Source: Eubacteriales bacterium (lineage in GTDB: Bacteria > Bacillota > Clostridia > Oscillospirales > Acutalibacteraceae). From it: a DNA stretch of 34,323 bases. Below are positions 44 through 16,372 of the stretch, one piece after another. Below the pieces are notes generated by a model. That model searched no databases and was not told the origin of the DNA. It saw only the letters and a list, made by a program, of their open reading frames with translations. How positions within the stretch are numbered: position 1 is the stretch's first letter; every line of letters starts with the position of its first letter. Both the position numbers and the translations under genes were made by a program. The stretch lies in NCBI GenBank assembly GCA_029219885.1, contig JAQXUH010000001.1:1-34323 (forward strand). The letters run 5' to 3'.

Positions 44-442
44 ATGTATGAAACTAATCCATATTTCTACGGTACAGGCAGAAGAAAAGAATCTGTAGCT
101 CGTGTACGTGTTTACGCAGGTACCGGTAAAATCACAATCAACGACAGAGACATTGACGATTACTTTGGCCTTGAAACTCTCAAGCTTATCGTTCGTCAGC
201 CTCTTAACCTTACTGAAACAACTGAGAAGTTCGATATCGTATGCCGTGTAAACGGCGGCGGTGTTACCGGTCAGGCTGGTGCTATCCGTCACGGTATTGC
301 AAGAGCACTTCTTCAGTATGACGAGTCACTTCGTCCTGCTCTTAAGAAGGCAGGCTTCCTCACTCGTGACCCACGTATGAAGGAAAGAAAGAAGCCAGGT
401 CTCAAGGCTGCTCGTCGTGCACCACAGTTCAGCAAGAGATAA
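44..442 (+). CDS. rpsI: 30S ribosomal protein S9
   Basis: Encodes S9 (132 aa, normal bacterial length), a small-subunit head protein whose basic C-terminal tail reaches the P-site tRNA. The sequence shows the family core: the N-terminal [13 protein letters not shown] motif, [21 protein letters not shown] in the middle, and the lysine/arginine-rich end [18 protein letters not shown] finishing in SKR. An AGGAGG ribosome binding site at 28-33 sits 10 bases before the ATG. It follows the rplM stop at 24-26, so the two are co-transcribed. Transcription ends in the hairpins directly after the stop codon. Confidence 0.98.
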
Positions 443-698: not shown

Positions 699-3600
699 CT
701 ATCCTTCTTCACCAAAGTTGAAGAACAGATTCGCACCGTTTGACATATCCCTGATTGCTGTATCGCGGTCAGTCATATAGATATCGTCAACATTATCCTC
801 TGCGTTCTCATATTCTGACTTTGAAACAAGGAATACACTTGATGACTCGGCAATATGAAGATTCATAGTACGCCAGTTTGTAAATCTGTGCATATTGAAG
901 TAATAAGCATTTACATCTACTGTGTCACCGAGACCGCATCCCCAAATTTCTGTATAATATCCGTCGATATCGAGATTTCCGTTAGGTGCATAGAAAAGAG
1001 CACCAATCTTGCCGTACATAGCAAAGTAGTCGATATCGCCGTAATATGAGGCTACTGCATTCGGAAGCTGTTTTGCGTTATACTCTGCATTTTCGCTCTT
1101 TGAATAAATATTGTAAAGCTCAACGTCACCGAGGTTTGCCACAAGATATGTAAGCTTCATATCAATTGTTGTGGTAATCTTGATATCGTTATTAGCAAAT
1201 ACAACTACCGGGAATGCTGTATTATTTGATGAATCGGATGCTGTACCATAGCTATCAAAGCCAACTACTGAGGTTTCACCTGTAATGGAATCCCAAGTAA
1301 GATTTACATTAGGTGCGGAGCATTCAAAATTATGTCCCATATACACAAGTGCGTCCTGACGAAGTACACATTGACCGAGAATAATCGTGTCATAAGTACC
1401 CATAAGAGAGGCGTTCTTGTTAAGAGTAAGCTGACCGAGAGTATAGATACTGCCGTTCTTTGGCGAGAAAGTCTGCTGAATGTTAAAGCCTATCTCCTTA
1501 ACCTTATCAATAATATCGCCGAGAAGTGTGCCGTCGCTTTGGCTGACATACTGCTTTTTGATAAATGTGTCATTATCAAAGGTTTCAGGCATTACCCACA
1601 TATCCGAGTTGTGACGGAGGGTAATATATTTAGGTGTGAATACATACTCGCCTACTGCTACACGGGAATAAGCAAATTCCTTAATATAGCTTGTATAGGA
1701 GGCAAGAGTTTTGCCGATATAGAACTGTCCGCCTTTTGCAAGGTCTGATTTATCGTCTGCCAGCTCTGCCTCGGTATCCAAGGTCTGAGTATCCTTAATT
1801 GCCTCTTCAGCTGTGGAATCATCGCCGGCGTCTGTACTTTCGCCAATCTTGTCGCCGGTTTCATCATCATCACTATCGTTGTACTCGCACTCTTCACCTT
1901 CGGTTACGCCGTGAATATCCGACTCGCTGACAGTATATTTTCCTGCACTTGTTTCAGTAACAGTTCTTGTGTAATCGCCGTACTTGCCAAGCTCAATATA
2001 CCTCATAGCAGTCATATTACCGCCTACTACAACAGTAGTGCAGTCACGAAGCTTGATAAATGATGTTAAAGCCTGCATACTGCCTGCAATATGGAACTGT
2101 GAATATGAGCCGCCGTCGATTGAAGTAGCTGCCTTAAGCTTTTTGCCTACATAAATTTTAGCATCGTGACGGAGTGTCAGATACTTATGTGAAACAAAGT
2201 CGCCCTTTACCCTAAGTGTGGTAGAAGCGTAAACCTTTGTATATCCACGGCTGTCAAAATCACCGTCAACATACATTTCACCTGCGTTGGAGAAAATATA
2301 TTTAACCTTAGTTTCGCCCTTGGCTCTGTACAGTTCCTCAACTGCTTGTGACTGGTCTCTGTCATCATCGTAAAGTGATTTACCGATTTCAACATAGTTA
2401 TCGCAGTTAAAATCGCCGTAGATATAATTCTTAACCATATCACGCATTTTGCAGGTATCACGGACATACATATCGCCGTTTACCGCAAGTCTTGAACAGA
2501 TATTTTCATCAAGGCTCTGATAAGCAAAGAATTTATAATCTGTGCCATCAATAAGGTTTTGGATAGTATTCCTGATTGTGCCGTTTTCCAACGAATCCAG
2601 AATAGTATCAAGAGAGCTGCCGCTGGAAATACTCTTTTGTCCTGCAATAAGCATTGTTACATTCTGTTTCATAACAACCTTACTGTTTGCATAAAGAGAA
2701 CCGCCAACATAGATATTTGCATTAGAGTAAATATCAAAATTACGTGAATAGTTTTTCGGAACCTTTTCGGCACTCATTGCTCGAACGTTTTTACCAAGAG
2801 TGTTGACAAGCATATTGCCGCCTACATAAACATACGCACTTGAAAGCTCGTCATCATTTGAGTCTTCATTATCGTCGTAGTATGTGTACCACTCTTTGTA
2901 AACATTAGAGCTTGCACCGCAGCGGCAGTTAAGCTTTGTACTTCTCTTTGACTGATAATCGCCGCCACACATAAATATGCTATCCTCGCCTACTACTACA
3001 CCTGCTCCTGCAAATACATTTTCAGATACAAATGTCTTTGTATCGTTGAAAAGCCAAAGAGCAGTTCTGTAATAAGAGTTATCCTTATTTGTGTAGCAAA
3101 GAAGCTTTCCGCCGATATAAGCAGTACCGAAGCTGATAAATGAGCCTGAATTACCTGCTGATTCAGAAGTACCAAGCTTCATATCACCACCGCAGTAAAT
3201 AAGGGAATTAGGATATGTAGTTGAGTCAAGGTCCTTTGAAATAGTGTAAGAGCCGTTACGTATTGCTGTACTGCTGGAATCTCTGTAGCTTCTGTTATTT
3301 ACAGTTTCGTTAGTCTGCTCATCATTGGTGATTGTACCTGTAACGATAAATGTGCCACAGTTATAAAGACTGCAACCGAATTTGAAATTACCCTCTGTTG
3401 CAAAGACAGAATCAACGCCGTTGAGCATTGCGTTGGAGTTCATATACATATTTCCTGCAAAATGAGCAATAGCACCATCCTGATTAAGGAAAGCAATATC
3501 CGCTGCCGGTGCAGTACTTGAAGAATAATATCCCTGAATATTTGCACCGCCGTTACAGTAAATACTGCCCCAGTTTTGAAGTGAACCGCCAATTTTAATG

Positions 3601-6600
3601 CCGTTAGAACCGCCGATATAAATAACAGCAGTTGTTATTTGAGTTTTTTCGCTGCCACCGTTTCGGATTGAAAAGCCTTTTTTAAGGTTTGATACGCTGT
3701 CATACTTTTCGTAATCACTGAACTCGCCGTCGTTGTAATAATTGAGATTATCTAAAATTATGAGCTTACCGAGATTATAGATAGCACTGCCCACATTAAG
3801 ATTCTTACAGCTTACCGAGCTGTTTTGTTCAACATAAAAAGCACGCTTGTGGTCATTTATTGAAATATCACCGCTGACATATGTATTGCCGTTTTGGACG
3901 ATAAACGCCTCAAGTCTGTTTTGAACATAATCAGCAGCCTTGCCGTTATAGTAGCCGTTTATGTTAAGGTTATTTTCAATATAAATATTACCCTGACCGC
4001 AGAAATATCCCTTATAATCGAGACTACCTAAGCCGTCTGCGGAATTTGAAGCAATAAACGTATCGGAATTCGGACCGAGTGCGATATCGCAGTATGTATT
4101 TGTCGCGTTTGAGGCAGACATATCAACGCCGCCCATAAGATACATATTGCCGTAGCTTGTAATTGTACATCCGCTGATTGTCAGCTTTTCTGTAGCGTAA
4201 AACAATCCGCCCTCTTTAATGTAGAAATAACCTGCTACATAAACAGTTTCAGGACATACAAATCTGCCATACTGACCGATTTCAAGCTTGCTGAGATTAT
4301 AAATCGGCTGACCGTCAAGGTCCTGAGACGGAGTATAGAAACCGCCGTTTATTACAAGCTGACCGCCTGAACGAACCTTTGAGCCTTGACCGCAGTAAAG
4401 CTCGGAAAGATAATCTGCGGTGTCGCTGTCGATGTTGATATTACTGCTTTCGACAGTCTTCATTCCCCAAACCTTAGACTTGTTGCTGACGTTAATAGTA
4501 TCAACAGTAAGATTTCTTTTGCAGACAAGTCTTGAGCTTTCGCTGATATTAAGTGCAGAAGCCTTAAGAGTTGTGTTGCAGAGAATTCTTGACGAGCCTG
4601 ATGCGGAAATTGTACCGCTTGAGGTAACGCTGTTTGTAAATACTGCCCTTGAGCCGCCGCTGAAAATAAGATTTGCAAAAGATGCAGAGCTTTGACAGTA
4701 AAGTGTATGTGCATTAGATACTGTTATATCGCCGCTTGCAACTGAAAAGCCCTTTTCAAATGTGGAGCTTCCGTATCCGCTGAGGATAAGTTTTGCTGAA
4801 CCTGTAAGTTCAAGCTTGTCATAACAGTAAAGTGTGCCGTAATTCTGGAAAGTGTTAGGGAAAGATATTGTAATCGTTGCATAGTTATTATCTGCAAGTC
4901 TGCCATCGCCGATATAAACTACAGAATTAGATTGAGTATTACAAAATTCTTTAACGTTTACAAATGGCTTTCTGCTTGACTGCAAAGTGTAGTCTCTGTC
5001 ATATCCGTAAATGCTGACGACAGAACCAGTGCCGTCGTGCATATAGAAGTGACGCTCGGCTGATGACTTTGTACCTACACTACCGCCTACATAAAGATTA
5101 CACGTACCTGACAAATCAAGGAAGTTATAAGCATTACTATCCGTCTTGCTGTTATTAGATGCTGTTACGTTACCGCCCACATACATTTCAGCATTACTCA
5201 TAACAATCTTAAAGTTTGCCGCAACATCACCTGAAGCATAAATTTTGCCGTAGCTTTCAACAGACATCCAATCTTTATCACCATTAAAGACCATATCACC
5301 TTTAGCCTTAATTGTGCCGTGAAGCTCAAGCTTAGGCGTCATATTAACTTGGCTCATTGAAAGGAGATTACCGTTGACAATCATAAGAGCATCGTCATTA
5401 CCTGTAAATATGATAGTTGACGCTTTTACCGTCGAAGTAGCAGTATCTACATATTCGGTTTTGCTGTTTGACTTAAACTCAGCTATACCATAGGCATTGA
5501 GGTAAGAACCTTCGCCGAGATTGATAGTTTTAGTAGTAAAGTTACCCTTAGCACTTACAAGAGCATTATTGCCGATGTTGGAGTTACCGCTGACGCTGAT
5601 ACTGCCGTTGCAGTAAATCTTTCCGCCGGGTTCAACGAGAAGTTTACCTGTACTGATATTACCTGTGCAGTAGAGGATACAGTTTTGTCTTACCTGAAGC
5701 TCTTCTTCAACTGAAATACTGCCGGTTACAATAAGAGTTGCATTTGAGCCTCCGCCTTGACCAACATCAAGATTACCGCCGTTGCCCCAGAAGTTCTTCT
5801 CAACTTTTACATCACCTGTAACAAGTGAAGAGCCGCCTGATGAAACATGCGGATGGAAGCCTGAAACACTGAAGCCTGAATAATACTTGCCTGCCATATC
5901 AGAGTCTTTGCTGCTTGGCTTACTGCTGCTTGTAAGCGTTCTTGACTCTGTTGAGCCGCCGCCCCAAGTTGAACCGCCTATCATATTAACGGTAATTGTA
6001 CCATTGCCGTTATCGTTATATGTCGGCATAATTATATCAACTGTTCCGCCTGTAACGCCTGCAAGTGTATAGTTCATCTGAGCATTAAATTTTTCTCTTT
6101 CAGCATATGCGGTATAGTCGCCGATAAGACCGAGAGAGGTAAACTCTGACATATCAGGGCCTAAGAAAATATTCTTTCTGTAAGGGAGCGTAGGAAGATT
6201 GCTTTCTTCCACATTTGTTGCGTTGACTTCCGCCTGCTTTGATGAAAACTGACTTCCATACTTACCGGTAAGGCTATCCTTTTTCTTTTGAACAGCGTCG
6301 GCAGCGTAATTGCCTGCAACGTTATCATTATAATAGGTTTTAACTGCACCCTTTGAATATTTGCTTTCGCCGTTTGCGTCAGGTGCAATATTCTTTTCCC
6401 AAAATTCCTTTGTAAATTCCGCAGGAGTCTTGAGCTTATCATTGCTGTTATAGAGCTTCTCACCCAAAAATGTGGTGTGAGCATCCTCGGTCAGCGTTGA
6501 AAGACCCTCGTTCTTTGTTCTCTTGTACCGAGTGAAAAGAAGTGAAGTGTCCTTTTTTGTATAATCGCTAACATCCGAATAAGTATTATCCTCGTAGGAT

Positions 6601-8318
6601 GTTTTTTCTAACAAGTCCTCAAGGTCACCGGACATAGTCTTGACAGCCTCACGTACTGTACGGTCCCCTGCTGCAACGCTTTCGCCGAAATCTTCTCTCG
6701 ACTTAGTTGCGTTTCTGATTGACTGATTAACCTGACGGACAAAGTATGGCTTCATATTAGGAACAGGAATATAGCCGTCTGTACCGAGCTTTTCCTGGAA
6801 TGTTCTTGTTAAAGCAAACTTTGCACCTGTAACAGTAGCGTTGGTTGTTGAAGTAACAGACGCTCCCGTTTTCTGCAAATCTCTGTTAATCTGTGCACCC
6901 TGAACATTTACGTTAACATCGTCAAGGTCGTTTCCGTCAGCGTCCTTATGAGAAATTACAATACTGTACTTTATGCCGCCTTTAGAGGCTTTATCAGCAA
7001 TATTTAAGAACTTAGGAGTTGTAGTTCCGGAAGCATAAAGCTCGTCGGTACCTACTATATTAAGCTCGTCCACAACTCCGCTTAAGGTCTGCTCATTAGC
7101 CATATTAAGGAGTGTTTTAGCATCTCCTTGAGATACGTCATAAACTATCATTGACTGATTTTGGAGACTGATAGTTCCGTCGTCGTTATATGCAAGATTG
7201 TCTGCCTGGTCAATGATTTTCTGCTTTTGAGCGTTTGTTACGGTTACCTTGTTTTCAAGATAGCTTTCTGCCTTTCTGCGATATTCTCTTTGAAGGTCTG
7301 CGGTGCTAGAAATAGAGCTTAAATTCATCTCATTGAGAATAGTCAGAGCATTCTGGGTCTGCTCTATATACTGCTGATTCTGAACATACACGTGAGTAGA
7401 TGCGTCACGGCTTGTATTAGTAAATACTATTGAATCAACAGCTGTGTATGTAACCTGACCGTAATCGTCATACTCGTTTTCGTCAGGCAGTATTTCTGTA
7501 TTTTCGTCAACCGAATTAGTTTCCGTACCGGTATAGTCCTGGTCCTTAACTCTTGCAGCGTTAAGAGCCTGTACACCGATTGAAATGTTTGAATTAGAAT
7601 GAACGTCTCCGTTTGTAATAGCCTCTGAAATATTAATATGAACAAGGTCTGTCATATTAGGAGTACCGCCGAAAATGCCGATAATCGGCTGAACTATCTT
7701 TTCGTTTACTCCGTTGATAACCATTTCAAGAGTAGAGACAACATAGTTGGTAACATCACCTGTTCTGCCGTTAATTTCAAGTGCAGGATTATTTGTGCTG
7801 CCGTTTGTTGAGCCTGCGAAAAGAGAATATTTAAGTGCTCTCGGCATTTCAACATAGTTTACATCGCACTTAACGAACGCACTTTTTTGCAGTTTCCAAG
7901 AGTCAATGTTGAATATATTTGCCGCCACGGCGTCGCTGTCTATTGTAACAATAAGCTTAATATATCCTGAAGTGATGTAATCATAATCAATAGTTTCCGA
8001 GTCAAGAACGCCCTTACGCTCAATTCTTACGTTGATAGCATCCTTGTATTTATCCTCTACGTCAATTCCGTTTTTTTGCAGATAAGAAAGTGCAACTCCC
8101 TCAAGGGAAGAATCAGTGCTCTCGAAGCTGGAACCAACTGCCACAGCGGCAGCATCTACTGCATTTTGAAGCTTTGCACCCTGATAATAATAAAGTCCGA
8201 AATCAAGTGCAAAGGCAGAAAGCAGTACTAAAAACGCTATTGCAAAAGCCGACATCAGTGTAACTGCGCCGTTTTCATTTCTATTACGCCTTTGTTTACT
8301 TCTTTTTGTAGAACTCAA
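699..8318 (-). CDS. Giant TadG-like Tad-pilus-associated surface protein with beta-repeat body
   Basis: About 2539 aa, last gene of the Tad operon. A GTG at 8348 is possible, but the TTG at 8318 has AAAGGAG at 8328-8334 nine bases upstream and is preferred. Residues 1-17 are basic; 18-41 form one hydrophobic segment after a glycine (NENG then AVTLMSAFAIAF), followed by ALDFGLYYYQGAKLQNAVDA, the TadE/G-type N-terminus. It lacks the Glu at +5 that marks true pilins. Residues about 60-820 are mixed and partly helical. From about 820 to near the C-terminus runs a glycine/asparagine/serine-rich beta-repeat body with recurring YCGG, YVGG, YCNG and VVGG turns, as in beta-solenoid or bactofilin-like folds. 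An acidic insert lies near 2140-2200. No LPXTG sorting signal is visible. A surface fibre or adhesin role is inferred. Normal TadG proteins are several-fold shorter. Confidence 0.85.
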   Translation of the reverse strand: MSSTKRSKQRRNRNENGAVTLMSAFAIAFLVLLSAFALDFGLYYYQGAKLQNAVDAAAVAVGSSFESTDSSLEGVALSYLQKNGIDVEDKYKDAINVRIERKGVLDSETIDYDYITSGYIKLIVTIDSDAVAANIFNIDSWKLQKSAFVKCDVNYVEMPRALKYSLFAGSTNGSTNNPALEINGRTGDVTNYVVSTLEMVINGVNEKIVQPIIGIFGGTPNMTDLVHINISEAITNGDVHSNSNISIGVQALNAARVKDQDYTGTETNSVDENTEILPDENEYDDYGQVTYTAVDSIVFTNTSRDASTHVYVQNQQYIEQTQNALTILNEMNLSSISSTADLQREYRRKAESYLENKVTVTNAQKQKIIDQADNLAYNDDGTISLQNQSMIVYDVSQGDAKTLLNMANEQTLSGVVDELNIVGTDELYASGTTTPKFLNIADKASKGGIKYSIVISHKDADGNDLDDVNVNVQGAQINRDLQKTGASVTSTTNATVTGAKFALTRTFQEKLGTDGYIPVPNMKPYFVRQVNQSIRNATKSREDFGESVAAGDRTVREAVKTMSGDLEDLLEKTSYEDNTYSDVSDYTKKDTSLLFTRYKRTKNEGLSTLTEDAHTTFLGEKLYNSNDKLKTPAEFTKEFWEKNIAPDANGESKYSKGAVKTYYNDNVAGNYAADAVQKKKDSLTGKYGSQFSSKQAEVNATNVEESNLPTLPYRKNIFLGPDMSEFTSLGLIGDYTAYAEREKFNAQMNYTLAGVTGGTVDIIMPTYNDNGNGTITVNMIGGSTWGGGSTESRTLTSSSKPSSKDSDMAGKYYSGFSVSGFHPHVSSGGSSLVTGDVKVEKNFWGNGGNLDVGQGGGSNATLIVTGSISVEEELQVRQNCILYCTGNISTGKLLVEPGGKIYCNGSISVSGNSNIGNNALVSAKGNFTTKTINLGEGSYLNAYGIAEFKSNSKTEYVDTATSTVKASTIIFTGNDDALMIVNGNLLSMSQVNMTPKLELHGTIKAKGDMVFNGDKDWMSVESYGKIYASGDVAANFKIVMSNAEMYVGGNVTASNNSKTDSNAYNFLDLSGTCNLYVGGSVGTKSSAERHFYMHDGTGSVVSIYGYDRDYTLQSSRKPFVNVKEFCNTQSNSVVYIGDGRLADNNYATITISFPNTFQNYGTLYCYDKLELTGSAKLILSGYGSSTFEKGFSVASGDITVSNAHTLYCQSSASFANLIFSGGSRAVFTNSVTSSGTISASGSSRILCNTTLKASALNISESSRLVCKRNLTVDTINVSNKSKVWGMKTVESSNINIDSDTADYLSELYCGQGSKVRSGGQLVINGGFYTPSQDLDGQPIYNLSKLEIGQYGRFVCPETVYVAGYFYIKEGGLFYATEKLTISGCTITSYGNMYLMGGVDMSASNATNTYCDIALGPNSDTFIASNSADGLGSLDYKGYFCGQGNIYIENNLNINGYYNGKAADYVQNRLEAFIVQNGNTYVSGDISINDHKRAFYVEQNSSVSCKNLNVGSAIYNLGKLIILDNLNYYNDGEFSDYEKYDSVSNLKKGFSIRNGGSEKTQITTAVIYIGGSNGIKIGGSLQNWGSIYCNGGANIQGYYSSSTAPAADIAFLNQDGAIAHFAGNMYMNSNAMLNGVDSVFATEGNFKFGCSLYNCGTFIVTGTITNDEQTNETVNNRSYRDSSSTAIRNGSYTISKDLDSTTYPNSLIYCGGDMKLGTSESAGNSGSFISFGTAYIGGKLLCYTNKDNSYYRTALWLFNDTKTFVSENVFAGAGVVVGEDSIFMCGGDYQSKRSTKLNCRCGASSNVYKEWYTYYDDNEDSNDDELSSAYVYVGGNMLVNTLGKNVRAMSAEKVPKNYSRNFDIYSNANIYVGGSLYANSKVVMKQNVTMLIAGQKSISSGSSLDTILDSLENGTIRNTIQNLIDGTDYKFFAYQSLDENICSRLAVNGDMYVRDTCKMRDMVKNYIYGDFNCDNYVEIGKSLYDDDRDQSQAVEELYRAKGETKVKYIFSNAGEMYVDGDFDSRGYTKVYASTTLRVKGDFVSHKYLTLRHDAKIYVGKKLKAATSIDGGSYSQFHIAGSMQALTSFIKLRDCTTVVVGGNMTAMRYIELGKYGDYTRTVTETSAGKYTVSESDIHGVTEGEECEYNDSDDDETGDKIGESTDAGDDSTAEEAIKDTQTLDTEAELADDKSDLAKGGQFYIGKTLASYTSYIKEFAYSRVAVGEYVFTPKYITLRHNSDMWVMPETFDNDTFIKKQYVSQSDGTLLGDIIDKVKEIGFNIQQTFSPKNGSIYTLGQLTLNKNASLMGTYDTIILGQCVLRQDALVYMGHNFECSAPNVNLTWDSITGETSVVGFDSYGTASDSSNNTAFPVVVFANNDIKITTTIDMKLTYLVANLGDVELYNIYSKSENAEYNAKQLPNAVASYYGDIDYFAMYGKIGALFYAPNGNLDIDGYYTEIWGCGLGDTVDVNAYYFNMHRFTNWRTMNLHIAESSSVFLVSKSEYENAEDNVDDIYMTDRDTAIRDMSNGANLFFNFGEEG

Positions 8319-8327
8319 AGTGATTCG

Positions 8328-8334
8328 CTCCTTT
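8328..8334 (-). promoter_or_regulatory. Ribosome binding site deciding the TTG start of the giant gene
   Basis: AAAGGAG on the minus strand, nine bases before the TTG at 8316-8318. The upstream in-frame GTG at 8346-8348 has no comparable site, so the protein probably begins ten residues later than the longest reading. Confidence 0.7.
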
Positions 8335-8365
8335 CTTATATTCAGCACACGTAAAAATTACGTAA

Positions 8366-9031
8366 TTATTCGTTATCTTCTCCCGAAGCAACATCCTCTG
8401 CCTTTGAATGAGCAAGAGAAAGCTCTGTCTGAAGACGGTAAATCAAATCTTCCGCCTTATCAATTGCACTTGCATAAATTTGGGAAATCTCCGAATATTT
8501 CTTTGCAGAATCTGAGGACATACCAACCTCCAGCTCCTGCTTTAAATTATTTATTTCAAATCTGTTTTTATCTGCTTTTTTAGTAAGATGAGTAACATCT
8601 CTTTGCAGGTCTCTGTTCTTTTCCTCAAGCTTTCTGTTTTCCTCGCCTAAAAGCCTGTTCTTTGAAATAAGGCTGTCAATTTTTTCCTGAAGCTCGCTGA
8701 TTTTTACAGAGTCTGCCTGAGTTATTACAGGTCCGTCAAGCTGTGACTTATATTCGTCACGCTGTCTTCTACAGTTTTCATAAAGAGCATTGATTTTTTC
8801 AAACTCGCCCTTTATCTGTGACAGCTCGCAGGAAAGCATTGAATTTTCGTTTTGAATCTCGCTGAAACGCTGGTCAAAAAGCTCGCCTGCATTTTTGTTG
8901 GCCGCAAGCAGATTGTTGATATATTCGTTTACCTGCTTGACATCGTAGCCACGAAGGACCTTGTCAAAACCGAAATCCTGAACCTCTTTGCCTATAATTT
9001 GATCTCTGTTTACAATGTCATTGTTACTCAT
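8366..9031 (-). CDS. DivIVA-domain coiled-coil protein in the Tad operon
   Basis: 221 aa. Residues about 20-42 match the DivIVA N-terminal signature (FDKVLRGYDVKQVNEYINNL). The DivIVA family binds curved membrane at poles and septa and recruits partners. Residues about 60-170 are a long charged heptad-like coiled coil (LQEKIDSLISKNRLLGEENR and following), consistent with oligomerisation. AGGAG lies shortly before the ATG. It sits 56 bases after the DUF192 gene and 47 bases before the giant TadG-like gene, so it is very likely co-transcribed with the pilus genes. A function in localising the Tad machine or the giant protein is inference; a general cell-division role is the alternative, though its setting far from division genes argues against this. 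Confidence 0.8.
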   Translation of the reverse strand: MSNNDIVNRDQIIGKEVQDFGFDKVLRGYDVKQVNEYINNLLAANKNAGELFDQRFSEIQNENSMLSCELSQIKGEFEKINALYENCRRQRDEYKSQLDGPVITQADSVKISELQEKIDSLISKNRLLGEENRKLEEKNRDLQRDVTHLTKKADKNRFEINNLKQELEVGMSSDSAKKYSEISQIYASAIDKAEDLIYRLQTELSLAHSKAEDVASGEDNE

Positions 9032-9087: not shown

Positions 9088-9435
9088 TTAACTGACAAAC
9101 TCCAAACAATCGCCATCACGAATACAAAGCCTGTCTGCCATTCCGGAGCAAAGCTCCAAAACCTTGTACCCGTTTTTGACCTTTTTGCGAACCTTATTGG
9201 GAGGAACGCTTCTGTCAATAAACAAAACCTTATTGTTTTTATCGAGAGTGATTGTATCAATATCAAATCTCATACCGAAAGTGTGAATTTCGTTACAAGG
9301 CATTAAAAGTAAGCCGTGATTTGAATTCATACTTTTGCGGTACATAAGTCCCATAAATCGTCTGAAAAAGTGATTTGCGTTTTCAATCTCCTGAATAAGC
9401 AGCTCACCGTCTTTATAAAGCTTTAATAATTTCAT
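9088..9435 (-). CDS. DUF192 family protein
   Basis: 115 aa. It shows the DUF192 pattern: GLMYRKSMNSNHGLLLMPCN, then IHTFGMRFDIDTITLDKNNK, and near the end VLELCSGMADRLCIRDGD. Family members are small beta-rich proteins of unknown biochemical function, often secreted; this copy has no clear signal peptide, so it is probably cytoplasmic. It begins 11 bases after the tadC stop and has a GGTGAG site close to the ATG, so it belongs to the Tad operon. DUF192 genes are known neighbours of tad genes in some bacteria, which suggests an accessory role in pilus assembly, but no function should be assigned. Confidence 0.85.
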   Translation of the reverse strand: MKLLKLYKDGELLIQEIENANHFFRRFMGLMYRKSMNSNHGLLLMPCNEIHTFGMRFDIDTITLDKNNKVLFIDRSVPPNKVRKKVKNGYKVLELCSGMADRLCIRDGDCLEFVS

Positions 9436-9446
9436 ATTCTCACCGA

Positions 9447-10397
9447 CTAAAACATTCCCGACATTGAATCCATTACCATTATAATAATAGGGGCCATAAC
9501 GATAATAATGATTGCGGGCAGGATAAACAGTACGGTGGGAATCGTCATTTTTGAAGGAACCTTTGCGGCAACGGTTTTAATTTCTTCCCTCTTTGAAAAT
9601 CTAAGCTGTTCCGATTGTGCCGCAAGTACATTGGTAATAGGAATACCAAGCTGATTTGCCTGAATAACGGCAGAGATAAACGTTTTAAGCTCTGCAACAT
9701 CAGTTGAATCGGAAAGCTCCTTAAGTGCCTCATTTCTGTTTTTACCAAGCTGAATTTGCTTGAATACCGTTACAAGCTCGTCAATCAGCGGGCCTTCCAT
9801 TCTCTCGGAAATCTTAACAAGAGATGCGTCAAAGCTGAGACCTGCCTCCATACATACACTCATAAGGTCGAGAGTGTCTGGAAGCTGAGAACGTATTGCC
9901 TGCTGATGACCGCTGACTCTGGTTTTCAAAAACATATTCGGGCCTAATATTGCAATAAGGCAGCCAATTAAAATAACAAGATAGAAATAGTTTGTAACAT
10001 TCATCAAGGCAAGACCGATACCTACTGAAATTACTAATGTAATAAGCATAAATGCTGTTTTAAAAAACTGAAAATTCGACACTGAAATATGAAGACCTGC
10101 TTGCCTGAGCTGTCTTGCAAGCTGAGCATTCTGTTTCTTTTTCTGTGCGTTTTTAGTTGGCTTTTTTCCGTTTTCGTCAACATTATTCAATTTATCAACA
10201 AAGGGCTTAATAACTCTTTCGTAAAATGATGTGTCAACATTTTTGTAATCAGAGCTTACAGTTTCCTTGCCGATGGCTTTCATTCTGCGAAGGTTGTTAT
10301 CCTCCTCCTTGCCTTTTTTGCCGAGGATAAGCACAACTATAACAAGAACAAGTGCCGTATATGAAATTACCAAAAAAGGTACAATATAGCTGCTCAT
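9447..10397 (-). CDS. tadC: TadC-like inner-membrane platform protein (T2SS-F family)
   Basis: 316 aa type II secretion F-domain protein. An N-terminal membrane helix (about 5-25) is followed by a basic cytoplasmic stretch, two adjacent helices around 120-160, the F domain with QLPDTLDLMSVCMEAGLSFD and LGIPITNVLAAQSEQLRF, and a C-terminal hydrophobic helix. With TadB it would form the membrane platform that couples TadA ATPase motion to insertion of Flp subunits. It lies 100 bases downstream of tadB and is followed after 11 bases by DUF192. It was assigned TadC, not TadB, by its position second after the ATPase and by the spacing of the F-domain motif; the two families are paralogous. Confidence 0.9.
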   Translation of the reverse strand: MSSYIVPFLVISYTALVLVIVVLILGKKGKEEDNNLRRMKAIGKETVSSDYKNVDTSFYERVIKPFVDKLNNVDENGKKPTKNAQKKKQNAQLARQLRQAGLHISVSNFQFFKTAFMLITLVISVGIGLALMNVTNYFYLVILIGCLIAILGPNMFLKTRVSGHQQAIRSQLPDTLDLMSVCMEAGLSFDASLVKISERMEGPLIDELVTVFKQIQLGKNRNEALKELSDSTDVAELKTFISAVIQANQLGIPITNVLAAQSEQLRFSKREEIKTVAAKVPSKMTIPTVLFILPAIIIIVMAPIIIMVMDSMSGMF

Positions 10398-10497: not shown

Positions 10498-11478
10498 TTA
10501 CATTTTTATATCTGTAATCTTTCTTATAATAGCAAAGCATATAATCTCAAGTATAGCTGCGATTATCAAACAGGTGTGACCGATTGTTGTAGTAAACAGC
10601 GGCTTTATAAAATCGAAGTTTACAAGTGCAAACATACCGAGAATTACAACAGGCATACAGCCTACAATCATACCGGTCATTCTTCCTGAAGCAGTTGCCG
10701 CCTTGAGCTCTTTTCTGAGTTTCATTTTTTCCTTAATGGAATTTGAAATATTCTCAAGTATTTGAGAGAGATTACCGCCTGTCTGCCTTTGAACAAGAAC
10801 TGCGGAAATCATAAGTGAAAGATAACTGCTTTTAATTCTCTTTCCCATATTTTCGAGGGCATCGTCCATAGATGTACCCATATTCAGCTCCTGAATAACA
10901 TAGGAAAATTCGGTGCTGATTGGTGCATCCATATCCTTTGCGATAGTTTCCATAGCCTGAGTAAAGCTAAGACCTGACTTAAGACAGCTGCACGCAATCA
11001 TCAATGCGTCTGCAAGCTGATTGTCAAATTTCTTAACTCTGGACTTTTGCTTGTTTTTAACATACATCATAGGAATAACAAGTCCCACGACAAGCAAAAT
11101 CACGGCAATAGCAGCATTTCCTGTGAACATAACAACCAAGCTTGCAGGAACAACGCTTACGATAAGCCAAATTGTCAAAAACTCCTCAGGACGCATCTTA
11201 ATATCGGCAGCCTGAAGTTCCTTATAAAGAGATGACGCCATCTTTTCAAAAAAGCTGTTGTTATTCTTTTTATTTTTTCTACGCTGTGTCAGCTTGCTTT
11301 CGTGCTTGACAAGAGCAATATCCGCTGCGTCGCCTTCCTTTTTCTTAAGCTCTTCAAGTCGCTTATTCGAAGCGATTTTGTTAGAAGACAAAAGAGAGGC
11401 AATTATGAAAACCGTTACAAATACAAGCAGAGCAAATGAAACAGTTAAAATTATTATATTAGTTAGAGAACCAGTCAT
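10498..11478 (-). CDS. tadB: TadB-like inner-membrane platform protein (T2SS-F family)
   Basis: 326 aa F-domain protein, paralogue of the next gene. A membrane helix at about 8-28 is followed by a basic region, paired helices about 100-140, the F domain (NQLADALMIACSCLKSGLSF, then ISAVLVQRQTGGNLSQILEN) and two C-terminal helices. Partner of TadC in the pilus assembly platform. Its ATG lies inside the end of tadA (20-base overlap, 11459-11478), which indicates translational coupling with the ATPase. Confidence 0.9.
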   Translation of the reverse strand: MTGSLTNIIILTVSFALLVFVTVFIIASLLSSNKIASNKRLEELKKKEGDAADIALVKHESKLTQRRKNKKNNNSFFEKMASSLYKELQAADIKMRPEEFLTIWLIVSVVPASLVVMFTGNAAIAVILLVVGLVIPMMYVKNKQKSRVKKFDNQLADALMIACSCLKSGLSFTQAMETIAKDMDAPISTEFSYVIQELNMGTSMDDALENMGKRIKSSYLSLMISAVLVQRQTGGNLSQILENISNSIKEKMKLRKELKAATASGRMTGMIVGCMPVVILGMFALVNFDFIKPLFTTTIGHTCLIIAAILEIICFAIIRKITDIKM

Positions 11479-12799
11479 TGTTTACAGCCACTCCGTTTTC
11501 GCGAATTTTTTCAACACATCTCGGGACAATACCTGTTGCCCTGAATTCTCCTTTAAATTTATTGTTTGCATCAAGCTCACCTGATGTATCATAGGTGAAA
11601 ATTTCCTGCATTCTTATAGTGTCGCCCTCCATTCCCACAATTTCGGAAATGGAAACAACCTTTCTCGAGCCGTCTCTGAGACGAGCCTGCTGAACAATAA
11701 GGTTAATAGCAGATGCGACCTGGTCTCTGATAGCCTTTGAGGGAAGCTCCGAGCCGGACATCATAACCATTGTTTCAATACGGGAAATTGAATCTCTCGG
11801 TGAGTTGGCATGAATAGTTGTAAGTGAGCCGTCGTGACCTGTGTTCATAGCCTGAAGCATATCGAGGGTTTCCTCGCTACGAACCTCACCTACGATAATT
11901 CTGTCAGGTCGCATACGAAGGGCGTTTACTACAAGGTCACGGATACTTATACGTCCCTTGCCCTCCATATTTGCAGGACGGCTTTCAAGTGTTAATACGT
12001 GCTCCTGATGAAGCTGTACCTCGGCAGAGTCCTCAATTGTTACAATTCTTTCGTCTGCCGGAATGTATGAGGATAAAACGTTAAGCAAGGTTGTTTTACC
12101 TGAACCGGTACCACCGGAAACAATAATGTTGAGCTTGCCTTTAACGGCGGCCTCAAGAAATTCTATCATTCTCGGTGAAATTGAGCCCCAGGTAACAAGA
12201 TTGTCTGCCGTGATAGGCGTTTTACCGAATTTACGGATAGTAAGAATCGGACCAATAAGTGATACAGGCGGAATAATTACGTTAACACGGGAGCCGTCGG
12301 GAAGTCTTGCGTCAACCATAGGACTTGCTTCGTCAACGTGACGGCCAACCTTTGTAACAATTCTGTCGATAATCTGCATCAAATGCTCGCTGTCCTTAAA
12401 TTTAATATCTGTCTGCACAAGCTTACCGTGAGACTCAACATAAATCTGGTAAGGACCGTTTACCATTATTTCGGAATAAGCGTCGCTGTCAACAAGACAC
12501 TGAATTGGGCCATAGCCCAAAATATCATCAATCAACTCTTCCTGAACGGCACCTCTGTCCATTCTTGCTATTCCGTATTCCTGCTTATTGACATACTCCT
12601 CAATAAGCTTTCGCATTCCGTCCTCGGTAAACGCCTCATCGTTACCGAGCTGACTTGCTATAATGGCAGCGTGTATTTTTGATTTTGCCTCTTCGTAAGG
12701 GTCTTTAACTGTGTTTTCACCCTTTGCCCCGAAGACTGCCTTGCTGCTTTTTGAATTTTCCTCAGGTACAGGAGAGGAATATCTATCTAATAATCCCAT
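11459..12799 (-). CDS. tadA: TadA/CpaF secretion ATPase
   Basis: 446 aa GspE/VirB11-type hexameric ATPase that drives Flp pilus assembly on the cytoplasmic face of the membrane. Visible motifs: Walker A GGTGSGKTT (229-237), an Asp box RIVTIEDSAEVQL (251-263), Walker B region RIIVGEVRSEETLDML (300-315), and a His box GSLTTIHANSPRD. The N-terminal domain includes the CpaF-typical DDILGYGPIQCLV and EIMVNGP. Length fits the family. It starts 7 bases after tadZ and overlaps tadB by 20 bases. All catalytic motifs look intact, so the pilus motor should be functional. Confidence 0.96.
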   Translation of the reverse strand: MGLLDRYSSPVPEENSKSSKAVFGAKGENTVKDPYEEAKSKIHAAIIASQLGNDEAFTEDGMRKLIEEYVNKQEYGIARMDRGAVQEELIDDILGYGPIQCLVDSDAYSEIMVNGPYQIYVESHGKLVQTDIKFKDSEHLMQIIDRIVTKVGRHVDEASPMVDARLPDGSRVNVIIPPVSLIGPILTIRKFGKTPITADNLVTWGSISPRMIEFLEAAVKGKLNIIVSGGTGSGKTTLLNVLSSYIPADERIVTIEDSAEVQLHQEHVLTLESRPANMEGKGRISIRDLVVNALRMRPDRIIVGEVRSEETLDMLQAMNTGHDGSLTTIHANSPRDSISRIETMVMMSGSELPSKAIRDQVASAINLIVQQARLRDGSRKVVSISEIVGMEGDTIRMQEIFTYDTSGELDANNKFKGEFRATGIVPRCVEKIRENGVAVNNDWFSN

Positions 12800-12806
12800 T
12801 TAGTTA

Positions 12807-13994
12807 TTACTTCTTTCGCTTGCTTTTTAATTTTTCGCTTGTCAGTTTTCCTTCTCTTTCCAGAATAAGCTTGTCCGCAAAGGCTTTGATATCCTTAGCT
12901 ATAACTGCTCTCGGCTTAAAGGTGATAAAAGGCTGACCGTTATTAAGTGAGTTATTTACTGTCTTTAAATCGCTTGAAACTACTGCATAAGCTTCAAGTC
13001 CCAGCAAATTCTCAAAATCTGAAATCTTAACGTTGTTTTTCTTAACGTTCTTGTTAATCAAAAGCCTAACTTTATCCTGCTGATTTATCTGCTGTAATAC
13101 GTTTTGGCAAAGCTTGGCTCTCTTGAGCGAAAGAATGTTTACATCGTTTACCATAAATATTTCATCTGACGATTCAAGTGCCGTAATTATCGGGTCGGTA
13201 AGTGCACATCCGCAGTCGAGAATAATATATTCATAGTAGTTTCTTGCTACATCTATAATTGCTTTTGAATGATTTGACTGAACATATTCCGCAAGCTCAG
13301 GAGAGCTTGGTGATGCAAGAACTGAAAGACCTGATGAATGAGTTATACAGCAGGAAGTCAGGTTGTCGATTGAAATGCCGTTTGAATCTCTTACCAAATC
13401 AACAATAGTTTCTTTAGGGTCAAGGTCAAGTGCCATATCTGCGTCACCGAACTGAAGGTCAAGGTCAACAAGCAAAACATTTTTGCCCATTGATGCAAGG
13501 CAAACTGCTGTATTTGTGCAGATTGTTGTTTTGCCTACGCCGCCTTTACCGCTGAAGAAAGCATAAACACGTGAACGTTCTTTCTTTCCGACGTTCATAT
13601 TTCTGCTGAATTTTCTCTCGTTGGAAACTATCTTGCCGATGTTTCTGCAAAATTCTTCGCCGCCTACGCTGAGTGACATTACCTGCCTGATGCCGTACTG
13701 AGCAGCACTGTTTACCAAATCAACAGTAACATTATCGGTCATTATTACAGCAGAACAACCAAATGAGCCTAAATTCATATCGTCGATATAATCAAAGAAC
13801 TCATCGCTGATATCAACGCTGTCAATAACAAAGACTGCAACATCTGGAACAAAGCCCTTAAGTCTTGTCTTTGCCTCCGGTGAAAAATCGGAATAGCCTA
13901 TTATTGAATATTCATCATTATTTTCAAGCTTGTTTTTGAGTGCAACCTTATATTCGGTTTTCTCGGAACAAACAACTATGTTAATCTTTTCCAT
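12807..13994 (-). CDS. tadZ: TadZ/CpaE-type ParA-like ATPase
   Basis: 395 aa. Residues about 1-125 resemble a response-regulator receiver fold but lack a clear phospho-acceptor pattern (atypical receiver, as in known TadZ/CpaE). Residues 145-380 form a MinD/ParA ATPase with deviant Walker A FFSGKGGVGKTT (147-157), the second motif LLVDLDLQFGDAD, and YIILDCG. TadZ/CpaE proteins localise the Tad secretion complex, commonly to a pole. AAGGAG lies 11 bases before the ATG. It is placed between rcpC and tadA, the usual order. The basic C-terminus (KLKSKRKK) is as seen; its role is unknown. Confidence 0.92.
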   Translation of the reverse strand: MEKINIVVCSEKTEYKVALKNKLENNDEYSIIGYSDFSPEAKTRLKGFVPDVAVFVIDSVDISDEFFDYIDDMNLGSFGCSAVIMTDNVTVDLVNSAAQYGIRQVMSLSVGGEEFCRNIGKIVSNERKFSRNMNVGKKERSRVYAFFSGKGGVGKTTICTNTAVCLASMGKNVLLVDLDLQFGDADMALDLDPKETIVDLVRDSNGISIDNLTSCCITHSSGLSVLASPSSPELAEYVQSNHSKAIIDVARNYYEYIILDCGCALTDPIITALESSDEIFMVNDVNILSLKRAKLCQNVLQQINQQDKVRLLINKNVKKNNVKISDFENLLGLEAYAVVSSDLKTVNNSLNNGQPFITFKPRAVIAKDIKAFADKLILEREGKLTSEKLKSKRKK

Positions 13995-14025: not shown

Positions 14026-14700
14026 TTAATCTCTTGGGTTAAGAATAAGCTTGTAGCTGTATGTATTTTCAATATCGTAAAGCTCAAGAGCTTGTTCTTT
14101 TGTTACCTCAACGGTAAGTGTGCTGTACTCTGTAATTGCGGAGCCGTTTTTACTTGCCTTTGAGTTATCGGAATTAGTTGAAACACGAAGAATTTTCAAA
14201 CCTTTGTAGGCGATTTCTGACTTTTCCTTGCCTTCCTCATCCTCATAAATAAGTACGTCAACCGTATCGCCCTCGCTGATATAACCGTCAACACTTGTTA
14301 CGGAAGGTGCGTCGAAGGAGTAAGCAACCTTGCCCTTTGCAAGCTTAAGTGAAAGTGCCACATCCTCGCCGTCAATACTCTCCAATCTCTTTGAGTTAAT
14401 CTGCTCGCCTGCATAAAGAGTATCAATTGTTACCATATCCAAAAGCTCTTCCTTTGAGGTAACTGCGTTAGGAGCCTTGTCCTCAGCAATTACTGTTTTT
14501 GTGGCAAACACGCCTGCGTCCTCTGCAAACATATCCTCGGTGATTGAGGTGTTTGCCTCAATATCAGCAACAGGAACGAATACCGTAACAGTATCAGCAT
14601 CCTTGATTGTCGATTTTTTATCAATTTCGCTTGCGAACATATATGTTGCAAAGCCTGCGATTAAAGCAAATAAAACTGCAATGAGATAAACCTTTTTCAT
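14026..14700 (-). CDS. rcpC: CpaB/RcpC pilus assembly protein (SAF domain)
   Basis: 224 aa. An N-terminal membrane anchor (about 4-24, VYLIAVLFALIAGFATYMFA) is followed by the SAF-domain pattern VTVFVPVADIEANTSITEDM and TLYAGEQINSKRL, then a second beta domain (SEGDTVDVLIYEDEEGK). In diderms CpaB/RcpC acts with the secretin; here no secretin gene is present, as expected for a monoderm, so this extracytoplasmic protein may interact with peptidoglycan or guide the fibre (inference). AAAGG lies 9 bases before the ATG. It lies between tadE and tadZ in the operon. Confidence 0.88.
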   Translation of the reverse strand: MKKVYLIAVLFALIAGFATYMFASEIDKKSTIKDADTVTVFVPVADIEANTSITEDMFAEDAGVFATKTVIAEDKAPNAVTSKEELLDMVTIDTLYAGEQINSKRLESIDGEDVALSLKLAKGKVAYSFDAPSVTSVDGYISEGDTVDVLIYEDEEGKEKSEIAYKGLKILRVSTNSDNSKASKNGSAITEYSTLTVEVTKEQALELYDIENTYSYKLILNPRD

Positions 14701-14786: not shown

Positions 14787-15374
14787 CTATTCGGAGTCAT
14801 CGGAGCTGTTTCTTTCTACCTTATATGTTGACTTTGAACCAACGTCACGCAGCATATGGTTATCGGCGTTACCAAGAATTGGCGTCAGAACTCTCAACTT
14901 TCCCGAAACGTAAACAGTAACATCGCCGTTACACCTGCTGTTGACGTTATAGTCAAGAGCTGCGGAGCTGTCATAACTATAGCTGACCTTTACTGTCACA
15001 TCCGATATAGAGCCCGGAAGCGTATCTACTGCCGTTCTGACAATATTAATTTCCTGCTCTGTATAAGGAATTTGGTCAGGGTCCATTCCGGAAGTGTTAA
15101 AATAAGGCTCAACATCTTCAACGGCAAACACCTTGCCCTCGCCGTCAGGACCTGTCTCAGGCGTTTTGCTTTCATCGTCGTAACAGCATTCCTGATACTC
15201 AACGCAGGCAATTCTGGCAGCGTTTCTTGCGGAATTTTCCACCGAAATATAGTTATAAAACAGCCATCCAAAGTCTACAACAATCAATATGACAAATACA
15301 AAAATAGGAAAAATCAAGACAAATTCAAGTATTGCCTGACCGCTTTCCTTATCTTTTTTTTGTTTATTTTTCAT
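14787..15374 (-). CDS. tadE: TadE-like pseudopilin
   Basis: 195 aa from the ATG at 15374, which has a GAGGTG site nine bases upstream; a GTG at 15386 would overlap this site and is less likely. After a basic lead peptide, ESG then QAILEFVLIFPIFVFVIL gives a class IV/TadE processing site (cleavage after Gly, Glu at +5, Phe at +6) and the hydrophobic pseudopilin helix. The rest is an extracytoplasmic domain with a cysteine cluster (ACVEYQECCYDD) and the usual SVENSARNAARIA segment. It is probably processed by TadV and acts as a minor pilin in Flp assembly. It lies directly downstream of the flp terminator, so it is expressed by read-through or from an unseen promoter. Confidence 0.9.
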   Translation of the reverse strand: MKNKQKKDKESGQAILEFVLIFPIFVFVILIVVDFGWLFYNYISVENSARNAARIACVEYQECCYDDESKTPETGPDGEGKVFAVEDVEPYFNTSGMDPDQIPYTEQEINIVRTAVDTLPGSISDVTVKVSYSYDSSAALDYNVNSRCNGDVTVYVSGKLRVLTPILGNADNHMLRDVGSKSTYKVERNSSDDSE

Positions 15375-15416
15375 CGAGATTTTCACCTCATATCTTTGAA
15401 AAGTGCTAATCTAAAA

Positions 15417-15446
15417 ATATAAGGGCAGGATTCCCTGCCCTTATAT
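15417..15446 (-). terminator. Strong terminator/attenuator after the Flp pilin gene
   Basis: A perfect 13-bp stem (15417-15429 with 15434-15446, ATATAAGGGCAGG arm) and 4-base loop are followed on the minus strand by a T5 run. It sits 20 bases after the flp stop and upstream of tadE. Such a site would give abundant short pilin mRNA with limited read-through into the machinery genes. Confidence 0.88.
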
Positions 15447-15466: not shown

Positions 15467-15646
15467 TTATTCACCGCCGGTAGCGTCTTCGATAGTTGCC
15501 ATTTCGCTCTCAAGGTCATCAGCCTTATTCTGAACAATATTTCTGATAACTACGATAGCAATAACTGCGATAACAGCTACAAGAGCAATGATAAGTACAT
15601 ACTCTATCATACCCTGTCCGCTTTCGTCCTTTAAAAACCTTGTCAT
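15467..15646 (-). CDS. flp: Flp-type major pilin prepilin
   Basis: A 59-aa gene. The protein begins MTRFLKDESG then QGMIEYVLIIALVAVIAV. This is the Flp prepilin signature: short basic leader, cleavage after Gly10, Glu at +5 and Tyr at +6, then a hydrophobic helix, leaving a mature pilin of about 49 residues that ends in a short acidic tail (ATIEDATGGE). An excellent AGGAGG (15655-15660) precedes the ATG. It lies between the prepilin peptidase that would cleave it and the terminator at 15417. It would be the structural subunit of the Tad pilus. High confidence from motif and context. Confidence 0.95.
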   Translation of the reverse strand: MTRFLKDESGQGMIEYVLIIALVAVIAVIAIVVIRNIVQNKADDLESEMATIEDATGGE

Positions 15647-15688: not shown

Positions 15689-16372
15689 TTAGAATACGCC
15701 AACCTCTGATACCAGAGAATCAATCAAAGGAAAGCACATTGAAATTACTGTTCCTGCCGATAGGAACGGTCCCATCGGAATTAAGGTTTTCATACCGCCC
15801 TTTTTTGTTACCTTAAGGATGATATAGGCACCTAATGCCAAAAGTCCCATAATCACCATGGCTTGAAGATAACCGCCGAGGTAGAGGCAAAGCCCGATTA
15901 CTCCGCTGTACTTAATGTCGCCGGCACCAACAGGGATTCTTAATAAACTTGGTGCAGTACAAGCAAGAAGTCCAATGAAGGCTCCTATCAAGGAGGCTAT
16001 CAAAACCTGCGATGTTTTGGTTGCTATTGAAACATAAACCGCATAAACGGCATGTGTAACAATCATTACTAATAAAAGTGAGTTTGGAATTTTCCTGATA
16101 ATTGAATCAACAACCGCTATACTGAAGATTGGTATTAATAAAACCAAATTTCTGATAAGGAGCGGTGTATCATCAACTGTGAGCATCAAGCCCACCGAGG
16201 AGAAAACTCCGAGAATAACCAAAGAAGCAATCAAAAGCTTGTTTTTAAGAAGTATCGTATCACCCGGATCTTCGCTTCTTGATATGATTAACTTCTTTGA
16301 TAAAGGAATTGTCACGACGGATAACGCCAAACCATAGACAACTCCAATAATTATCTTAACTAAAACTGACAT
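15689..16372 (-). CDS. tadV: Prepilin peptidase, A24 family (TadV/CpaA)
   Basis: 227 aa polytopic membrane aspartyl protease that removes the leader from Flp and pseudopilins. Both catalytic aspartates are visible: VVDSIIRKIPN (Asp89) and GAGDIKYSG (Asp152, the GxGD motif). It lacks the N-terminal methylase domain of PilD, as is typical of TadV/CpaA. First gene of the Tad operon, with a promoter 56-84 bases upstream of the start codon. The ATG at 16372 has only a weak GGAT-like ribosome binding site, so translation may be low, which suits an enzyme needed in small amounts. The flp gene follows after 42 bases. Confidence 0.94.
   Translation of the reverse strand: MSVLVKIIIGVVYGLALSVVTIPLSKKLIISRSEDPGDTILLKNKLLIASLVILGVFSSVGLMLTVDDTPLLIRNLVLLIPIFSIAVVDSIIRKIPNSLLLVMIVTHAVYAVYVSIATKTSQVLIASLIGAFIGLLACTAPSLLRIPVGAGDIKYSGVIGLCLYLGGYLQAMVIMGLLALGAYIILKVTKKGGMKTLIPMGPFLSAGTVISMCFPLIDSLVSEVGVF

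Follow-up and report, generated by a model that had tools for sequence, protein, structure and literature searches.

A giant Tad-domain protein closes a tad operon of an uncultured clostridial bacterium and is a candidate pilus tip subunit with a probable beta-solenoid arm

The window analyzed here is a stretch of 34,323 nucleotides from an Eubacteriales bacterium of the family Acutalibacteraceae (GenBank assembly GCA_029219885.1, contig JAQXUH010000001.1); it is the whole of contig C1 in a genome of 105 contigs that is judged 85.8% complete. The minus strand carries a tad operon that starts with the gene for a prepilin peptidase (15689..16372; Peptidase_A24, 26.2 bits, just below the Pfam cut-off of 26.5). 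It is followed by the gene for a protein of 59 aa named by its motif alone as the major pilin Flp (15467..15646; GQGMIEY, with Glu at +5 and Tyr at +6), a 13-pair hairpin with a subsequent T run (15417..15446), and the genes for the minor pilin TadE (14787..15386; GQAILEF, Glu at +5), RcpC/CpaB (14026..14700), the ParA/MinD-type ATPase TadZ (12807..13994), the ATPase TadA (11459..12799; T2SSE), the platform proteins TadB (10498..11478; T2SSF) and TadC (9447..10397; T2SSF), a DUF192 protein (9088..9435) and a coiled-coil protein with a DivIVA domain (8366..9031). The last gene (699..8318) encodes a giant Tad-domain protein of 2,539 aa. The original prediction had assigned this gene to the end of a Tad operon, and the operon indeed contains all core tad genes; a place in one operon with Flp, TadA, TadB, TadC and the prepilin peptidase is that of a Tad minor pilin. 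Neither TadF nor TadD was recognized among the open reading frames scanned, and since there is no recognizable TadF, the TadE/F/G trimer of published models is not a safe assumption for this operon. No match to secretin families was found in the source genome at its 85.8% completeness, which agrees with a cell with one membrane.

Two other features of the operon recur. The DUF192 and DivIVA-domain genes follow tadC in the giant-bearing loci, and DUF192- and DivIVA-like genes, judged by eye from translations, also follow tadC in five loci that encode a short Tad protein (L016, L018, L049, L050 and L053). The two genes seem to be regular accessories of this type of tad operon, and their products are perhaps used to place the machine in the cell. 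A hairpin with a T-rich tail is located 3' of flp in L101 and L102 too; in L053, which has two flp genes, one is found after the second and none after the first. The hairpin between flp and tadE may keep expression of the major pilin above that of the minor pilins.

The frame of the giant is open throughout from 699 to 8348 (7.6 kb), with the stop codon at 699-701. If translation started at the first GTG of the frame, at 8348, the product would have 2,549 aa. However, the TTG at 8318 is the better start because the ribosome-binding site AAGGAG (8328..8333) is located 9 bases 5' of it, and we therefore keep this start and the length of 2,539 aa that had been proposed. The gene is convergent with the gene for ribosomal protein S9 (44-442, plus strand), which lies 256 bases from its end. 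An assembly artefact was considered and rejected, since frames of similar size with the same neighbors are present in many separate MAGs.

The N-terminus had been described as being of the Tad type, and this was borne out. The Pfam Tad domain (PF13400), at 8133..8270, scored 29 bits against a cut-off of 22.3, and the family was matched in 15 of 15 relatives scanned (E 0.01). The prepilin sign, a Gly at -1 with a subsequent hydrophobic stretch, was present in all 16 aligned giants that have the N-terminus. The Glu or Asp at +5 that characterizes type IV prepilins was found in none of these 16 proteins, the residue at this position being Met, Ile or Trp. According to a review, Glu5 is thought to aid the docking of a subunit in the growing pilus, and tip complexes are capped by a subunit without Glu5 (PMC10191384). 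Lack of Glu5 is therefore expected of a tip cap subunit and equally of a protein that never enters a pilus. If the latter is the case, the giant could be a permanently anchored stalk rather than a pilus subunit, with a solenoid that crosses the thick wall of a monoderm cell and either guides the pilus or displays an adhesin on the outside of the wall. The missing secretin, as in monoderms, would fit a membrane stalk, and a table in the same review lists TadG with the membrane sub-complex and not with the pilins (PMC10191384). Older work, as cited in PMC12607857, speaks for the pilus, TadG having been reported in fibre preparations.

The Tad domain is followed by a non-repeat part (residues 63-820; 5859..8132), and from residue 820 on the protein has a different character. 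The original prediction had put a repeat zone of about 1,600 residues with recurring turns at residues 820-2440 (999..5861). Ser (10.6%), Gly (10.2%) and Asn (8.3%) are frequent in this region, and the turn motif [YF][VICA][GN]G occurs 9 times; in 1,000 shuffles, the average count was 0.67 and the highest was 4. Hydrophobic residues recur at spacings of 6, 12, 14 and 20 (z of 5.8, 4.7, 3.5 and 3.5, where 95% of the shuffles stayed below 3.1). In residues 1-700, no hydrophobic spacing exceeded its bound (best 3.2 versus 3.3), and a glycine spacing of 50 did (4.1 versus 3.6). For an internal comparison, 25 overlapping segments were taken from an alignment of 22 rows and compared profile against profile, with neighboring segments left out. 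A probability of more than 50% was reached by 32 of 120 segment pairs within the repeat zone; none of the 21 pairs from the N-terminal part and none of the 119 pairs between the two zones reached it. The predicted zone does hold many mutually homologous segments. Plain BLAST (E 1e-6, at least 40 residues) revealed no internal repeats in any of the 22 giants, two of which are cut, and therefore the repeats must be old and diverged.

Bactofilins are built as a parallel beta-helix, and some of the repeat segments resemble them. When compared to a profile of 20 bactofilins from the class, retained from 23 that were identified in 24 loci, the segments starting at 801 and 1401 reached 91.4% and 92.1% and those at 1201 and 901 reached 71.9% and 55.9%, respectively, in pairwise hhalign probabilities that are uncalibrated against a database. 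Values were low in the other 13 segments from 1001 on (0.25 to 20%); there was no likeness in the repeat segments covering 1501-1920 (0.25 to 0.5%), less than 4% in those starting at 2101-2301 and less than 0.3% in all eight segments starting at 1-701. On this point the original prediction of beta repeats is supported, in that the repeats have diverged and in part resemble an established family of solenoids. The giant as a whole scored 10.9 bits with Bactofilin (PF04519), far below the cut-off of 27.9, and bactofilin frames are short (114 to 483 aa). A resident bactofilin as the source of the repeats is unsupported, since no bactofilin genes were found in 20 relatives. A profile of residues 1400-2539 (22 rows) gave no match among chains of solved structure; matches of the whole giant to PDB entries at E 0.13 and 0.42 and to NCBIfam RtcR at E 0.42 were dismissed as noise.

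Judged from its sequence, the repeat region is probably a parallel beta-solenoid. Solenoids with 19 to 20 residues per rung and a rise of 0.48 nm would give an arm of about 40 nm, and the wall of monoderms has a thickness of the same order as 25 to 40 nm. Scaled to ComZ of Thermus thermophilus, whose solenoid of about 380 residues extends over about 60 A (PMC6561018), the arm would be about 26 nm long. An arm of such dimensions, being of the order of the wall, would also suit a membrane stalk. ComZ is a solved beta-solenoid pilin that is argued to be at the tip and binds DNA (PMC6561018), and a 2026 review regards its solenoid as an inserted domain through which adhesion could be gained. As a pilin with a large inserted beta-solenoid it resembles in architecture the form proposed for the giant, but its solenoid has only about 380 residues, and it is similar to T2SS pseudopilins and belongs to a competence pilus. 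Acting like ComZ, the giant could be a DNA receptor at the tip that is used for DNA uptake rather than for adhesion. We consider this improbable, because the matches of the giant to solved chains were no better than noise and its repeat region is more acidic than basic (Asp 6.5% and Glu 4.1% versus Lys 5.6% and Arg 2.3%).

Conserved synteny in tad loci had been named as support for the prediction, and the giant does have a fixed place there. Relatives were found in 31 of 80 genomes of the same genus (E 1e-5; source genome counted) and TadA in 30 (E 1e-60). Both were present in 29 genomes, only the giant in 2, only tadA in 1 and neither in 48 (Fisher p 2.6e-18, relatedness of the genomes ignored). 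The two genomes with only the giant are G583, in which the contig ends just past TadC, and G627, which is 62% complete; the genome with only tadA (G620) has a TadA with 49% identity that belongs to another tad type. Loci were fetched from 20 of the 30 other same-genus genomes with relatives. The giant is complete in 18 of these loci (2,515 to 3,671 aa) and itself runs off the contig in the other two. In all 18 complete loci, a homologue of the DivIVA-domain gene adjoins the giant upstream at a distance of 15 to 128 bases; the weakest homologue (29% identical) is that of L119, with a giant of 3,158 aa. Homologues located mainly outside tad loci, which would have argued against the prediction, were thus not what we found.

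A pattern scan of genome contigs from 84,980 species returned 21 named loci. They are labelled as uncultured Clostridia, Eubacterium, Eubacteriales, Clostridiales, Ruminococcaceae or Oscillospiraceae, and the titles of some mention goat rumen, goat reticulum, sheep ileum or red deer. Relatives are rare in samples of the family, in which the whole giant as query matched in 9 of 200 genomes (source genome counted; in 7 of the remaining 8 the match was confined to the N-terminus) and a C-terminal profile in 10 of 398, including the source genome and one more of the genus. The only giant outside the genus in these samples was that of G071, with 2,622 aa. A plasmid search with the C-terminal 610 aa of the giant gave no match. 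Known TadG proteins had been said to be several-fold shorter. Indeed, among the 75 PF13400 matches listed from 391 genomes of the class, the longest frame besides the giant's own had 1,492 aa, and the same maximum was found in 394 genomes of the order, in a survey that would miss giants with a weak Tad match. A further match to the C-terminal profile of the giants comes from a third genus (G759:C17:1425-1760), within a frame of 1,200 aa that is perhaps of intermediate size.

Several other observations were made in these genomes. The family has a second, distant tad type with a TadA of 43 to 51% identity, whose Tad-domain proteins reach 1,491 aa (L056), and G608 bears both types. Stop codons are present inside the matched stretch in four genomes, two in an N-terminal piece in G614 and one each in G603, G604 and G608; the matched stretch in G603 and G608 is the C-terminal end of the protein. 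The giant of G071 (L047:5424-13292) is otherwise built of the repeats but contains a block of BspA-type leucine-rich repeats (E 9.3e-23) at residues 519-614; its residues 2163-2206 resemble a zinc ribbon (E 3.6e-4, below the cut-off). CxxC pairs 12 to 60 residues apart, possible metal-binding loops, occur in 10 of 22 giants (L102, L108, L110, L112-L115, L118, L119 and G071), mostly toward the C-terminal part, and are absent from the window protein.

Where the giant came from is indicated by related operons. A close TadA (61 to 70% identical) was found in eight genomes of other genera besides G071. In L016, L018 and L053, the slot of the giant behind the DUF192- and DivIVA-like genes is occupied by a short Tad protein (412, 434 and 588 aa, respectively); in L049 the short protein is encoded on the other strand (359 aa) and in L050 elsewhere in the operon (383 aa). 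L051 encodes one of 649 aa whose neighbors are hidden by the ORF filter. The Tad protein of G194 is encoded on a different contig, and in G044 the contig ends before it. DUF7305 (PF23981) was matched in all four short proteins scanned (L053, L018, L016 and L051; E 7.5e-7 to 5.3e-5), in one case above the Pfam cut-off. Neither the window giant nor the G071 giant had a Pfam match to DUF7305; the window protein has a DUF7305-like C-terminal cap with a YAPNG motif at residues 2419-2470 (909..1064). A profile of six short proteins matched both ends of the giant, with 99.3% for residues 1-120, 74.7% for 101-220, the first portion of the non-repeat part, and 94.4% for 2401-2520. Giant segments starting at 801-2001 hit the repeat zone of the short proteins (columns 303-496) at 6 to 87%, in no fixed order, some over few columns, and with 4 of 13 below 10%; those starting at 201-701 and 2101-2301 gave no match (<2%). 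In the opposite direction, the C-terminal profile of the giants found seven non-giant proteins (E 5e-9 to 3e-6). When 29 TadA proteins were placed in a tree, the 17 loci that bear a giant, L119 among them, all fell into one clade with a support of 100/99; L048, in which the Tad protein lies past the contig end, is outside this clade. Since both ends and the repeats match the short proteins and the giants share one TadA clade, the giant would most simply have arisen by a single expansion of a short Tad protein and later varied in length. The giant had been thought of as a form not described before; instead, it appears as an enlarged version (2,515 to 3,671 versus 359 to 649 aa) of a short Tad-domain protein from the same type of operon. 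WD-40 chains matched the short-protein profile with E values down to 4.7e-33 but over only about 40 columns close to its C-terminal end (307-349) and were not returned by single-sequence searches with the L053 and L016 proteins; we take this for a chance likeness of a repeat motif.

The short relatives also bear on the function of the giant, as they seem too small to span a wall, which speaks against a membrane stalk. The homology of the pilin-like N-terminal part to these proteins likewise argues against a cargo that is exported and released by the Tad machine with the Tad helix as a targeting signal only, and so do the published tip models of TadG (PMC12075869); no wall-anchor family was found among the Pfam matches of the giant and 15 relatives, as would be expected of a released protein, but we regard this fate as very unlikely.

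That the long uninterrupted frame is maintained by selection had been proposed, and codon comparisons support it. The giant and that of L120 are 67.6% identical, with a dN of 0.244 and a dS of 1.61 over 1,918 codons (dN/dS of about 0.15, with dS near saturation). The last 300 codons gave a dN of 0.118 and a dS of 1.57 (about 0.08), and the first overlapping block (540-900) a dN of 0.397, with dS not computable. The giant is under purifying selection. The least conserved stretch is residues 720-1260 (4539..6161), in which relatives are 18 to 32% identical to the window protein, occupancy goes down to 0.55 and most of the extra length of the longer relatives is located. Such variability could result from functionless growth, in which the repeats of a short TadG simply drifted and swelled. 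However, the low dN/dS ratios, the presence of complete frames of giant size in separate species and the lack of recent internal duplication in any of 22 giants make this hardly credible, and we disfavor it.

Large tip subunits are not without precedent. According to PMC12075869, TadG is the backbone of modelled tips and has a C-terminal modular domain, and KilN is modelled at a Tad tip; CpaL is modelled at the tip in PMC12607857. Like the giant, these are large Tad minor pilins with a hydrophobic helix and a big extra part that are encoded together with TadE. The published description of CpaL extends to residue 626 and includes a vWA domain (PMC12607857); the giant has a beta-repeat arm instead, and no vWA family was found among the Pfam matches of the window giant or 15 relatives. 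PilB and PilC of Streptococcus sanguinis also carry adhesive modules on minor pilins of a monoderm pilus and are modelled at its tip, but these are vWA and lectin modules rather than a giant repeat arm, and the pilus is not of the Tad type (PMC9934059). In a search of largely open-access literature, none of the titles and beginnings of abstracts listed describes a giant TadG, and no paper mentions DUF7305 or both TadG and bactofilin. The claim that the giant has no precedent nevertheless does not hold, because a beta-solenoid tip pilin (ComZ, PMC6561018) and large modular tips of the TadG/CpaL/KilN kind are already published. What is new here is the size of the giant, its Tad setting and its one-time expansion.

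Taking these precedents together with the lack of Glu5 in 16 of 16 giants and the presence of TadG in fibre preparations, we favor a position at the tip. On balance, we think it somewhat more probable than not that the giant belongs with TadG, CpaL and KilN among the Tad minor pilins of the tip, as a cap without Glu5 that bears a beta-solenoid arm for adhesion. The published tip models (PMC12075869, PMC12607857) at the same time make a membrane stalk the less likely alternative.

If the giant is a tip cap, the following sequence of events would be expected. The N-terminal Gly and hydrophobic helix would keep the giant in the membrane until it is released by the prepilin peptidase. Without Glu5, it would be the first subunit, below which TadE and then Flp would be added by TadA, TadB and TadC. 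The pilus would grow outward through the wall with the giant at its end, and the repeats would fold into a parallel beta-solenoid arm of about 25 to 40 nm that is closed by the DUF7305-type cap. The arm could then bind a surface, such as plant fibre, mucus or another cell, and a retracting pilus could pull. A more far-reaching idea, which we put forward tentatively, is that the giants are single-chain pilins of 2,500 to 3,700 aa whose solenoid arm, tens of nanometres long and of different length in different species, extends past the tip of a Tad pilus that can retract. Such a long-range grapple would have arisen a single time, when the solenoid of a short TadG grew, and in some species would carry extra modules such as leucine-rich repeats or zinc-ribbon-like cysteine pairs. 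The length of the arm may be tuned to the partner surface or to the thickness of the wall.

A giant tip pilin would bear on how Tad pili of monoderm gut bacteria recognize surfaces by their tips. Since it occurs in more than one-third of a genus and combines conserved ends with a solenoid of variable length, it would allow the "adaptable tip" model to be examined in bacteria that are neither predators nor pathogens. The size up to which a pilin can still be exported by the machinery of type IV pili would become apparent as well. Should the giant attach to fibre or mucus, it would act as a colonization factor of uncultured Clostridia of the rumen and gut.
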